From the IMG/VR virus record IMGVR_UViG_3300015373_000017, positions 1 to 37,008 of that record: DNA of 37,008 nucleotides, one strand, 5' to 3'. Position numbers and translations under genes: made by a program. Under the pieces are notes generated by a model. The model saw only the letters and a list, made by a program, of their open reading frames with translations, did no database searches and was not told the DNA's origin. Below are positions 19,823 through 29,743 of the stretch, piece after piece; the first letter of the stretch is position 1, and every line of letters begins with the position of its first letter. This DNA is from a virus.

Positions 19823-19859
19823 GCCCCAGACTGTGTAGGTTTGGGGCACTTGTTTTTTC
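19823..19859 (+). terminator. Rho-independent terminator of the tail operon
   Basis: Stem GCCCCAGAC (19823-19831) with GTTTGGGGC (19839-19847), loop TGTGTAG, 9 bp with one G-T pair, then ACTTGTTTTTT. Confidence 0.85.
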
Positions 19860-19866
19860 ATAGATT

Positions 19867-19900
19867 ACACTCCTTGCTTGTCCAAGTGAGGAGTGTTTTT
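19867..19900 (+). terminator. Second, tandem rho-independent terminator
   Basis: Stem ACACTCCT (19867-19874) with AGGAGTGT (19889-19896); the loop can add a small CTTG/CAAG pairing; five T residues follow the stem. Tandem arrangement would insulate the early promoter from late transcription. Confidence 0.85.
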
Positions 19901-20571: not shown

Positions 20572-20760
20572 ATGACAACGAAACAAAAAGAAAAGCATCT
20601 CTCCGAAGCACCCAAATGGGGAGAAGATGCCAGGACACTCCAGAGGTCAATCTATCATTTTAGGGCAATGTTAAGAAACAAAGGCTACTTATTGCCAGCA
20701 GGCCTTTTGAAAGAATTGGATGCGAACTTGGAAGAAGCACTTAAAAAATTTACTCAATGA
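20572..20760 (+). CDS. Hypothetical early protein, 62 aa
   Basis: Basic N-terminus and two predicted helices (TLQRSIYHFRAMLRNKGYLL and LLKELDANLEEALKKF). Its stop overlaps the next start in ATGA. No family recognised. Confidence 0.6.
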   Translation: MTTKQKEKHLSEAPKWGEDARTLQRSIYHFRAMLRNKGYLLPAGLLKELDANLEEALKKFTQ

Positions 20761-20912
20761 TTTACATGCTGTTACTTATCTGCTTGATGAACACTGTTCT
20801 TTTCCAAATAATAGAAGAGACTGAAATATTCAGACAGTATTTCAAGACTTGGTTAATGCTGATTCCACCATTTGCATTAATTTCTGTCATAATTCACTTG
20901 GTAAAGACCTGA
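20757..20912 (+). CDS. Small membrane protein with two TM segments, 51 aa
   Basis: MIYMLLLICLMNTVLFQII forms one hydrophobic segment and TWLMLIPPFALISVIIHLV a second, joined by a charged loop (EETEIFRQYFK). Starts in an ATGA overlap. Its stop codon lies inside the 5' arm of the hairpin at 20907-20928. Early expression argues against a simple holin; superinfection exclusion or host-membrane targeting are alternatives. Confidence 0.6.
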   Translation: MIYMLLLICLMNTVLFQIIEETEIFRQYFKTWLMLIPPFALISVIIHLVKT

Positions 20913-20928
20913 TATTTCTATATCAGGT
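20907..20928 (+). promoter_or_regulatory. TTTCTA-loop hairpin, copy 1
   Basis: Perfect 8-bp stem ACCTGATA / TATCAGGT around hexaloop TTTCTA, 20 nt before the ATG of the 85-aa gene. Same loop as the three hairpins at 27030-27239 but a different stem. There is no clear T-tract, so it is not a standard terminator. Confidence 0.6.
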
Positions 20929-25169: not shown

Positions 25170-25868
25170 ATGAGTGACATGGGAGAGCTCTCCACAAGAG
25201 AAGAAATTGTCAAGGGTATTAGATTTATCTGTTGCGATAACTTGCCTTTTATGAGAGAGATTGACATGGGCTATTTTCACGTAGGGATAGTAGACCCGCC
25301 ATATGGAGTTGAGGCTCACGCTTTTAATATGGGCAAAACAAGTGCCGAGCGTGCTAAATTAGACACAGTATTCAATAGGGGCTCTTGGGATGGCAAGATT
25401 CCCTCAAAGGAATATTTTGACCAACTGAGAAGAATTACAAGACAACAAGTAATCTGGGGTGGAAACTACTTTTTAGATTTCCTGCCAGCTACAGAGTGCT
25501 GTATGATTTGGGATAAAGAGCAAGCAGAAGGTCTTGGTTATGACGATTTCGAGCTTGCATGGACAAGTTTGAAAACCAAGAATATGATTTGTAGAAGGCA
25601 CAGAGTCAAGGACGCTAAAATTGAAAAGATACATACAACTCAGAAACCAGTGTACTTGTATAAATGGATTTTTTCTAAATTGATAAGTGCTGGTTATTTG
25701 AAAAAGGGACAGCGAGTCCTTGATACTCATGGAGGAAGTCACAATATAGCAATCGCAGCTTATGACTATGGAATGGAGTTAACAATATTAGAGATTAATC
25801 TCCAGTATCACTTGGATGGTATAGAACATTTTAAAAAATACACTATTCAAGGAGCACTCTTGTTATGA
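25170..25868 (+). CDS. DNA adenine-N6 methyltransferase
   Basis: 232 aa. Asp42-Pro-Pro-Tyr45 in VDPPYG is the catalytic motif IV. WDKEQAEGLGYDDFELAWTS and IHTTQKPVYLYKWI are standard for phage methyltransferases. The AdoMet motif follows near the C-terminus as VLDTHGGSHNIAIAA, with Gly-Gly-Ser-His in place of the usual Gly-Ser-Gly, before ELTILEI. Motif IV before motif I is the circular order of this subgroup. Likely protects phage DNA from restriction; no cognate nuclease was seen. ATGA overlap to the next gene. Confidence 0.85.
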   Translation: MSDMGELSTREEIVKGIRFICCDNLPFMREIDMGYFHVGIVDPPYGVEAHAFNMGKTSAERAKLDTVFNRGSWDGKIPSKEYFDQLRRITRQQVIWGGNYFLDFLPATECCMIWDKEQAEGLGYDDFELAWTSLKTKNMICRRHRVKDAKIEKIHTTQKPVYLYKWIFSKLISAGYLKKGQRVLDTHGGSHNIAIAAYDYGMELTILEINLQYHLDGIEHFKKYTIQGALLL

Positions 25869-26422
25869 TGGATATTGAAATTCCAGAATCATCTCTGATA
25901 AGATTTATTGGATACGATAGAGAAAAGAGGACTTTGGCTATCGCATTTCACAAGCAGGGTTGGCAACAGGATAGAATCTACGTAGATGTGCCAATATCTC
26001 TCTTTGAGGAATTTAAGAACTCGCAGTCAAAAGGTAAATTCTTTTTAGATAACATAAAAAATAAACTAAAAACTATGGCTAAGGGAAAAAACAATCAATT
26101 TGACATGATAATAGATGTCAGAATAGATGTTACCAAGCTTATGAAGGAGTGGCTCTTCAAAGGCGAAAAAGGTGTATATGCTGATTTGACTCTGTTTTAT
26201 CATAATGACCAAGACCCAGAATATAAGACAAATGGGTTTGTAACTCAGAAAGTTCCAAAAGCAGTCTGGGAAAATGATAGGAATGCTCGAGGCCCGATTC
26301 TTGGAAATATAAAGAATTGGGAAACTGTCAAGAAAGAAGTGGATAAAGACGCTATTCCTGGAGCAACAGAGGTCGCAACAGTACAAACTAATCAAGACTG
26401 GCAAGATGATTTACCATTTTAA
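25865..26422 (+). CDS. KTSC domain fused to SSB-like protein
   Basis: 185 aa in one frame. Residues about 5-65 match a KTSC domain (LIRFIGYDREKRTLAIAF, then YVDVPISLFEEFKNSQSKGKFF). Residues 71-185 form a separate beta-rich domain (FDMIIDVRIDVTKLM, GVYADLTLFYHNDQD, GPILGNIKNWE) ending in DDLPF, the acidic tip by which single-strand binding proteins recruit partners. An internal ATG at 26075, preceded by AAACTAAAAACT like other starts here, could yield the SSB-like part alone. SSB function fits the context with nuclease and annealing protein. Confidence 0.65.
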   Translation: MMDIEIPESSLIRFIGYDREKRTLAIAFHKQGWQQDRIYVDVPISLFEEFKNSQSKGKFFLDNIKNKLKTMAKGKNNQFDMIIDVRIDVTKLMKEWLFKGEKGVYADLTLFYHNDQDPEYKTNGFVTQKVPKAVWENDRNARGPILGNIKNWETVKKEVDKDAIPGATEVATVQTNQDWQDDLPF

Positions 26423-26996: not shown

Positions 26997-27029
26997 GTTT
27001 TTGGTTGTATATAAGTTTTGTACATAAGT

Positions 27030-27049
27030 TTAGCTGTTTCTACGGCTAA
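27030..27049 (+). promoter_or_regulatory. TTTCTA-loop hairpin, copy 2
   Basis: Stem TTAGCTG / CGGCTAA (7 bp with one T-G pair) around loop TTTCTA. The 15-nt core GCTGTTTCTACGGCT is repeated exactly at 27220-27234. Confidence 0.6.
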
Positions 27050-27061
27050 TGTGATGAAATA

Positions 27062-27085
27062 TACCAGGTGTTTCTACACTTGGTA
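27062..27085 (+). promoter_or_regulatory. TTTCTA-loop hairpin, copy 3
   Basis: Stem TACCAGGTG / CACTTGGTA (9 bp, one G-T pair) around loop TTTCTA, 12 nt before the ATG of a 28-aa membrane peptide. A 10-codon ORF (27054-27086, MKYTRCFYTW) runs through it, so translation there would melt the hairpin. Confidence 0.65.
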
Positions 27086-27097
27086 AAACTTTAAACT

Positions 27098-27184
27098 ATG
27101 ATTATTTTCTATATTATCCTATTAGTCATTGCTGTTATTGGTATTATTTACTTAACAGTTCTGGCTCTTAAAAGACCAAAATAA
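27098..27184 (+). CDS. 28-aa membrane peptide
   Basis: MIIFYIILLVIAVIGIIYLT is one hydrophobic helix, followed by VLALKRPK with a basic end. It lies between two TTTCTA hairpins, preceded by AACTTTAAACT like other starts in this phage. The size and charge resemble the 32-aa peptide at 17656. It is too short for a confident call, but the leader style supports translation. Confidence 0.5.
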   Translation: MIIFYIILLVIAVIGIIYLTVLALKRPK

Positions 27185-27204
27185 CTTGATGTGTAAATCA
27201 GGTT
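27183..27204 (+). promoter_or_regulatory. Hairpin after the 28-aa peptide
   Basis: Stem AACTTGAT / ATCAGGTT (8 bp, one T-G pair) with loop GTGTAA, beginning in the peptide's stop codon. No T-tract follows, so a processing or attenuation role is as likely as termination. Confidence 0.45.
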
Positions 27205-27213
27205 AGCATATAC

Positions 27214-27239
27214 ATACTGGCTGTTTCTACGGCTGGTAT
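27214..27239 (+). promoter_or_regulatory. TTTCTA-loop hairpin, copy 4
   Basis: Stem ATACTGGCTG / CGGCTGGTAT (10 bp with T-G wobbles) around loop TTTCTA, 27 nt before the ATG of the 204-aa gene. Confidence 0.65.
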
Positions 27240-27266
27240 AACATTTTAACTGAAAAATCAATATAG

Positions 27267-27881
27267 ATGGATTTACAATTTAATGTCTCAGAAGAGAGAC
27301 AGCAACTATGGATTGAGCGATTAAATAACTCAATCATCGAGACCCAGTGCAAGCTTGAAGAAAAATCAGCTGGATTTGCCGAACTTGAACAAAGGTATCT
27401 CTCTTGGAAAATGGAGATTGATAAACTCAACTCTATGTTAATGGCAGATAAAGCAGACCTTGAAACATTTGTTCAGGCAAGCAAAGTAAAAGAGACAAAA
27501 CCATTGGTTAGGGTCAAGCCTGGAATAAAGAAGTTTTCACAGGCTACCGAAGATAAGTGGAAATCGTCTGGCTGGATTAGATGGGAAGAAATTATAAGAC
27601 CTGCTCTCAAAGAGAATGGGCGATTTATGGAGAATCGAGAATTATGGAAGTATCTACTGCACACAAAGCGAGTAAATGATGATGATGTAACTCATAGAAG
27701 ATTTGTGGTAGCATTTAGTTCAAGGAGTAATTCGTGGAAAGCACACTTAGGTCCGAATGACATTAGAAAGATTGGACTCAAGGAGTGGTTTGATGGAGAA
27801 GTTATCAAGCAAGAACATCTTAAAGACTTTTTAAATAGCAAAGCTCATGAAAGCAGTAGTCGTGTCTATGCAAGTGCCTGA
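27267..27881 (+). CDS. Coiled-coil protein with C-terminal helical domain, 204 aa
   Basis: Residues 1-75 form a coiled coil (LWIERLNNSIIETQCKLEEK). A basic linker (VRVKPGIKKF) leads to a domain with WIRWEEIIRPALKENGRFM, ENRELWKYLLHT and HRRFVVAFSSRSNSWKAHL, which looks like a winged-helix or HARE-like fold. It may bind DNA. It is the first sizeable gene after the hairpin array. Overlaps the next gene by 35 nt. Family not recognised. Confidence 0.6.
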   Translation: MDLQFNVSEERQQLWIERLNNSIIETQCKLEEKSAGFAELEQRYLSWKMEIDKLNSMLMADKADLETFVQASKVKETKPLVRVKPGIKKFSQATEDKWKSSGWIRWEEIIRPALKENGRFMENRELWKYLLHTKRVNDDDVTHRRFVVAFSSRSNSWKAHLGPNDIRKIGLKEWFDGEVIKQEHLKDFLNSKAHESSSRVYASA

Positions 27882-28723: not shown

Positions 28724-28733
28724 GTGTTCTGGA

Positions 28734-28796
28734 AAGGAGGCATGGAGGCTGAAACCGTGAGGTATTTCAGTTCTGGTTCGATACCAGACCTCCTTC
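28734..28796 (+). ncRNA. tRNA-like RNA without D-arm
   Basis: A perfect 7-bp acceptor-like stem AAGGAGG (28734-28740) / CCTCCTT (28789-28795) and a canonical T-arm TCTGG-TTCGATA-CCAGA (28772-28788) directly joined to it. In place of D- and anticodon arms there is a hairpin CTGAAACC / GGTATTTCAG (28749-28770) with GTGA loop and a 2-nt bulge. At 62-63 nt it is too short for a normal tRNA and has no valid anticodon loop. A tRNA mimic or a decayed tRNA are both possible. Confidence 0.6.
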
Positions 28797-28816
28797 TTTC
28801 TTCTTTTGTAATGTTT

Positions 28817-28845
28817 GCCCCGTCAGTGAGTGGGCGGGGCTTTTT
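28817..28845 (+). terminator. Rho-independent terminator before the glycosyltransferase
   Basis: Stem GCCCCG (28817-28822) / CGGGGC (28835-28840), 12-nt loop, five T. It lies 21 nt after the tRNA-like RNA and 7 nt before the next ATG, so it could also act as an attenuator. Confidence 0.75.
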
Positions 28846-28852
28846 ATCTCTT

Positions 28853-29743
28853 ATGAGTCCACAATACCCAGTCTACATCATATCGAAAGGTAGATGGAGA
28901 ATCAGGCTAACCGCCAATACACTTGAAAGATTTAATCTACAATTCTTCACAGTAATTGAGGAATCTGAGTGGGTCATGTACGCTAACGAGCGAAGACGTG
29001 GAGAGCAATTTCTAATTTTACCAGAACAATATCTTAAAGATTATGATACCTGTGACAATATACCCTATGGAGCAAAATCAGTTGGGCCTGGAGCAGCAAG
29101 GAACTACTGTTGGGAACATTCTATTAGTAATGGATATACAAGTCACTGGGTCATGGACGACAACATTAGTGCATTCTTCAGACAAAATAGAAATTTCCAA
29201 GTACCTGTCACAAGTGGCACAGTACTTAGAATCATGGAGGATTTTTGCGATAGATACGATAACGTGGCTATTGCCGGACCAAACTACGACTTCTTTGCTG
29301 ATGCAAAAGCTAAAATGCCTCCCTACGTACTCAACACCAGAATCTATTCATGCTTATTAATACGTAATTCGATACCCTTTAGATGGCGAGCACGCTATAA
29401 TGAAGACACAGACCTCTCCCTACGAGCCCTTAAATCTGGACTTGTCACAGTTCAATTTAATGCTTTCCTACAGGAAAAGGCTACTACCCAAACCATTGGT
29501 GGTGGCAACACCAGAGAGTTCTATGAAGTAGAGGGTACTTCACCCAAATCAGAGATGTTAGTTAAACTACACCCGGACGTATCACGTCTGATGGAGCGCT
29601 TTAACCGTGCCCATCACTACGTAGACTACCGGGCATTTCGGCTCAATCGCCTCAAAAGAAAGGTGGGAATTGAGATTCCAGATAGAATAAACAACTATGG
29701 TATGAAACTAATAAATGTTAAGACAAATGAAGAAATCAACTAA
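28853..29743 (+). CDS. TET-associated-type glycosyltransferase (TAGT-like)
   Basis: 296 aa from ATG 28853; the frame is open upstream through the terminator and RNA, which argues for this start. GT-A type features: YPVYIISKGRW at the N-terminus, PGAARNYCWEH, Asp102-Asp103-Asn104 in WVMDDNISAFFR (metal/nucleotide-sugar site) and RYNEDTDLSLR near residue 190. This set matches my recall of the TAGT family, which glycosylates hydroxymethylated pyrimidines in phage DNA. No TET/JBP dioxygenase or nucleotide hydroxymethylase is in the window. Codon use is richer in C than in its neighbours, suggesting recent acquisition. Confidence 0.7.
   Translation: MSPQYPVYIISKGRWRIRLTANTLERFNLQFFTVIEESEWVMYANERRRGEQFLILPEQYLKDYDTCDNIPYGAKSVGPGAARNYCWEHSISNGYTSHWVMDDNISAFFRQNRNFQVPVTSGTVLRIMEDFCDRYDNVAIAGPNYDFFADAKAKMPPYVLNTRIYSCLLIRNSIPFRWRARYNEDTDLSLRALKSGLVTVQFNAFLQEKATTQTIGGGNTREFYEVEGTSPKSEMLVKLHPDVSRLMERFNRAHHYVDYRAFRLNRLKRKVGIEIPDRINNYGMKLINVKTNEEIN

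Follow-up and report, generated by a model that had tools for sequence, protein, structure and literature searches.

Four intercistronic hairpins with the loop UUUCUA in a 37-kb virus record (the window, meaning the whole 37,008-nt stretch analysed) are best explained as copies of a recurrent RNA hairpin of Bacteroidota-type phages, most likely acting on RNA 3′ ends within runs of same-strand genes, a reading to which we assign a probability of about 0.5. The proposed element would comprise a variable stem of 7–11 bp, a purine-pyrimidine closing pair (G-C or A-U) and an invariant UUUCUA loop. The window copies and the features around them are listed in Table 1.

Table 1. Hairpins, reading frames and genes of the window, in window coordinates.
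Feature	Position	Strand	Description
TTTCTA hairpin 1	27030–27049	+	TTAGCTG-TTTCTA-CGGCTAA, 7 bp; starts 33 nt past the stop of a 75-aa gene
TTTCTA hairpin 2	27062–27085	+	TACCAGGTG-TTTCTA-CACTTGGTA, 9 bp; ATG of the 28-aa ORF 12 nt downstream
TTTCTA hairpin 3	27214–27239	+	ATACTGGCTG-TTTCTA-CGGCTGGTAT, 10 bp; 28-aa ORF 29 nt upstream, 204-aa gene 27 nt downstream
TTTCTA hairpin 4	20907–20928	+	ACCTGATA-TTTCTA-TATCAGGT, perfect; overlaps the stop of the 51-aa ORF; ATG of an 84-aa ORF 20 nt on
Companion hairpin, other loop	27182–27205	+	TAACTTGAT-GTGTAA-ATCAGGTTA, 9 bp; begins on the stop codon of the 28-aa ORF
28-aa ORF	27098–27184	+	One likely membrane helix and a basic C-terminus, read from sequence
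10-codon ORF	27054–27086	+	MKYTRCFYTW; crosses hairpin 2
51-aa hydrophobic ORF	20757–20912	+	MIYMLLLICLMNTVLF..., read from sequence; stop inside hairpin 4
204-aa gene	27267–27881	+	Downstream of hairpin 3; no family
Terminator-like hairpins	19823–19847, 19867–19896		Two, conventional, other loops; 3′ of structural genes
KTSC-domain protein	25865–26422		PF13619; C-terminal DDLPF resembles the acidic tip of single-strand DNA-binding proteins
Glycosyltransferase	28724–29743		TET-associated, PF20691

A first-pass annotation made from the sequence had described positions 27001–27266 as a compact regulatory island, and its three TTTCTA hairpins, GTGTAA hairpin, 15-nt repeat, 10-codon ORF and 28-aa ORF are all found where it placed them; the fourth copy, outside that region, had been missed. 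The coding strand of the window carries four TTTCTA hairpins with stems of at least 7 bp, all of them intergenic (hairpin 4 overlapping a stop codon), and the other strand carries none. Such hairpins average 0.07 in 300 dinucleotide shuffles of the window, with a maximum of two, which rules out a chance origin. The hexamer TTTCTA alone is not over-represented (39 occurrences versus 47 expected), every other six-nucleotide hairpin loop is used at most twice in the window, and no intergenic hairpin there has a loop with one mismatch to TTTCTA. The stems of hairpins 1–3 are unlike one another beside the loop (GCTG/CGGC, GGTG/CACT and GATA/TATC, respectively), so that what is repeated is a structure plus a loop and not a sequence; the exact 15-nt repeat GCTGTTTCTACGGCT, at positions 27033–27047 and 27220–27234, is simply the common loop plus two similar stems, and is thus not independent evidence. 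The folding energy of region 27001–27266 is −71.4 kcal/mol (z = −5.4 relative to dinucleotide shuffles), and its individual pieces have z-scores of −2.7 to −4.7. No Rfam covariance model matches the window at its gathering score, and the relatives yield only tRNAs.

The primase encoded in the window is closest to those of Cellulophaga phage phi46:1 and Nonlabens phage P12024S, and no close relatives were found through the neighbouring 204-aa and 185-aa proteins. The hairpin is absent from all 80 primase relatives, as well as from phi46:1, P12024S and Flavobacterium phage mumin9-1, so that inheritance with the primase lineage can be rejected. We also note that the PF20691 gene suggests that the phage may carry glycosylated, hypermodified DNA bases.

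Because the hairpin does not follow the primase lineage, we scanned the viral collection by pattern, using GGTG-TTTCTA-CACC. Among the matches listed, to which all of these counts refer, 40 of 81 distinct viral matches are intergenic, stems of at least 8 bp are present in 37 of the 81, and a T-rich tail follows 30 of the 40 intergenic ones; with the same stem and the permuted loop TTCTTA, the single control used for the loop, 2 of 44 matches are intergenic. Some of the contigs counted are related to one another in groups, and the independent cases are therefore fewer, perhaps 25 by our estimate. Altogether the TTTCTA hairpin occurs at no fewer than about 40 further viral loci. Most of these belong to phages that are poor in Shine-Dalgarno sites and have relatives among Flavobacterium, Cellulophaga or crAss-like phages: Shine-Dalgarno-like sites precede 8% of genes in the hairpin-bearing loci versus 40% in control loci, and for two proteins neighbouring hairpins the matches are to phages of Flavobacterium and Cellulophaga or to crAss-like ones, while one protease and one exonuclease near hairpins have broader matches. 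In an alignment of 45 distinct hairpins, each of the eight stem pairs varies on both sides, with 98.6% of cells paired (69% when shuffled) and a covariation score of 0.84 (0.24 when shuffled). Two large phages, of 125 and 129 kb, yielded additional hairpins to a covariance model, their stems being quite different and their loop once again TTTCTA; each of these genomes has several TTTCTA hairpins. The other terminators in hairpin-bearing contigs use many loops, TTTCTA being found in 2 of 87. A DNA similarity search of the consensus hairpin against named phages returned partial, mixed matches only, and a literature search on UUUCUA hairpins produced nothing relevant.

The hairpin is a feature of phages and not of their hosts. 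In 395 Bacteroidota chromosomes there are nine copies versus ten of the reversed form, and the lack of any excess rules out a general host feature. Covariance-model matches in 296 genomes were few and mixed, and when the genome collection was scanned by pattern the matches were mostly chance ones within genes.

Among the matches listed, 42 of 51 intergenic hairpins lie between two same-strand genes, and all of the 51 have a same-strand gene upstream with one exception, which is at the end of its contig. In phages other than that of the window, the median distance from the stop codon to the start of the hairpin is about 28 nt (mostly 13–43 nt), and the distance from the hairpin to the next ATG is widely variable. 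The first eight nucleotides after the stem include six or seven T in 33 of 47 relatives, a U-tract of the kind that marks intrinsic terminators, and the Bacteroidota promoter motif TANNTTTG lies no more than 60 nt downstream of 10 of 43 hairpins versus 2 expected. The adjoining genes are mostly those for capsid protease, primase, exonuclease, virion proteins or tRNAs, and in two phages hairpins are beside or between tRNA genes. This placement fits the anatomy of a terminator or 3′-end hairpin, in many cases with the next promoter after it. Flavobacterium phage elemoF and MW202828 share a homologue of the junction at locus L434; there they have plain terminators whose loops are different, and TATCTTTG comes next.

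Two further observations concern the surroundings of the hairpin in other phages. One 125-kb phage (L635, record G408) has a cluster of 16 tRNA genes with a TTTCTA hairpin within it. In 16 of 43 other phages, versus 0.9 expected, the sequence TTTTTCAT(AG) is present 8–30 nt upstream of the stem (carriers include L089, L096, L411, L422, L430, L498 and L516), and it is absent from the window.

The window copies are stable, G-C-containing hairpins, as is expected of intrinsic terminators, and the first eight nucleotides after the stem contain 3, 3, 4 and 5 T, too few for a U-tract; only the copy at 20907–20928 passes a terminator scan. Because these tracts are weak, partial termination or processing is likelier for the window copies, which may be partial terminators, exonuclease barriers, processing sites or protein sites. 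We envisage that a hairpin with a U-tract, as in most relatives, would act as an intrinsic terminator, and that one without it, as in most window copies, would be a weak terminator, an attenuator or a barrier to exonucleases or processing; the outcome would be unequal expression of adjacent small genes. Several points weigh against a 3′-end function, including the weak U-tracts of the window copies, the absence of the TANNTTTG motif downstream of them, and the presence of conventional terminator-like sites elsewhere in the same phage. Moreover, plain termination does not account for a fixed loop.

The reading that we rank second, behind a 3′-end function, addresses this last point: an RNA-binding protein or RNase, encoded by phage or host, could bind the UUUCUA loop, and the hairpins would then be the translational operators or processing sites of a regulon. 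We regard this as a real, if minority, possibility. It would agree with the presence of several hairpins per genome, with their enrichment in phages and not in Bacteroidota chromosomes, and with the lack of one-mismatch loops in the window; the loop is also kept while the stems covary, although in the family set the invariance of the loop is built in by the exact-loop search. Three of the four window copies (at 20907, 27062 and 27214) and the hairpin at locus L133 lie 12–27 nt upstream of an ATG, the spacer containing a similar TTTTAA-type stretch, an arrangement that is also compatible with a translational role and so counts against a 3′-end function. However, the genes adjoining the hairpins share no class, a purely translational operator is excluded by the hairpins between tRNA genes, and no candidate binder was found; phage-encoded bS21 was considered as a loop reader and rejected, as it is absent from 14 hairpin phages. 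More speculatively, a single RNA-binding protein, RNase or polymerase factor might read the loop at numerous junctions of genes and tRNAs and there set termination or processing, making the UUUCUA hairpins a phage-specific RNA regulon. It is unlikely, in our judgement, that UUUCUA is merely a good terminator loop that has arisen many times, as UUCG has elsewhere, and is read by no specific factor. The other loops of the relatives' terminators at the L434-type junction, and the variety of loops among the other terminators of the hairpin-bearing contigs, are in its favor, but the window copies retain the loop despite being poor terminators, host chromosomes show no excess even though their terminators would profit equally, and we know of no special stability of the UUUCUA loop, which counts against it as well. 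With regard to bS21, four Bacteroidota 16S genes (L645–L648) have CCTCCTTTCTA at the 3′ end, matching the hexamer of the hairpin loop, and the match is probably a coincidence; the last nucleotide of the F. johnsoniae 16S tail is U1544 (PMC9976891).

The structured RNA around small genes described in the first-pass annotation is thus substantiated, and it recurs in other phages, whereas the mechanisms proposed for it are not borne out. The suggestion that translation of MKYTRCFYTW governs hairpin 2, and so the 28-aa gene, as in an attenuator, draws on the presence of this ORF across the hairpin, and we consider it very improbable. The ORF has no run of regulatory codons, and no competing, mutually exclusive hairpin was seen; short ORFs cross 15 of the 51 family hairpins, so that this one is unremarkable and probably not meaningful; and leader translation cannot matter for hairpins beside or between tRNA genes. 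The likeness to a type I toxin-antitoxin locus, with the 28-aa peptide as a membrane toxin, rests on a single-helix peptide with structured flanks, and we give it hardly any credence: opposite the ORF the sequence contains only short mechanical minus-strand ORFs and no Rfam match, leaving neither a clear antisense gene nor a known antisense RNA; the peptide has no Pfam match, and hence no homology to a known toxin family, and no phage homologue; and elsewhere the hairpins are found next to genes of quite other kinds. The annotation had also proposed looking for conservation in relatives, and here the hairpin does recur in other phages while the peptide has no homologue and the primase relatives lack the hairpin. 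The 28-aa ORF is nevertheless a plausible small gene, and hairpin 3 trails its stop codon by a distance usual among the family hairpins. A membrane peptide beside a hairpin is seen again only next to hairpin 4 and at L133, where the hairpin is upstream of a 41-aa single-helix peptide, and with three such cases in all a link cannot be claimed.

Comparison with known systems shows both similarities and differences. The UUUCUA hairpins resemble the intrinsic (Rho-independent) terminators of Bacteroidota phages in following soon after a stop codon, in having a U-tract in most relatives and in often preceding another promoter or gene, and differ from them in the fixed loop and in the weak or absent U-tract of the window copies. 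In T4, Tuerk and colleagues reportedly described intercistronic C(UUCG)G hairpins in 1988, and these likewise occur many times within a phage genome and combine a single loop with stems that differ; the UUUCUA hairpins have another loop, another host group, a looser closing pair (either G-C or A-U) and fewer copies per genome. Type I toxin-antitoxin loci likewise place a short membrane peptide near structured RNA, but here there is no antisense RNA or homologue to be seen and hairpins elsewhere adjoin unrelated genes. The operator hairpin of T4 and RB69 gene 43 also has a conserved loop 5′ of a start codon, but it is present at one site per genome and has a known autoregulatory ligand, gp43 (PMC3014915), whereas UUUCUA hairpins are at several sites and without a known ligand.

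Since the hairpin can be recognized by its loop, it provides a ready list of sites at which to ask whether anything reads UUUCUA, in a group of phages, the crAss-like phages included, whose transcription termination and RNA processing have to our knowledge been little studied. Of the possible readings of the constancy of UUUCUA, a loop-binding factor is the most interesting. If such a factor exists, the hairpins would constitute a new phage RNA regulon, and if not, they would still offer a useful signature of gene junctions.
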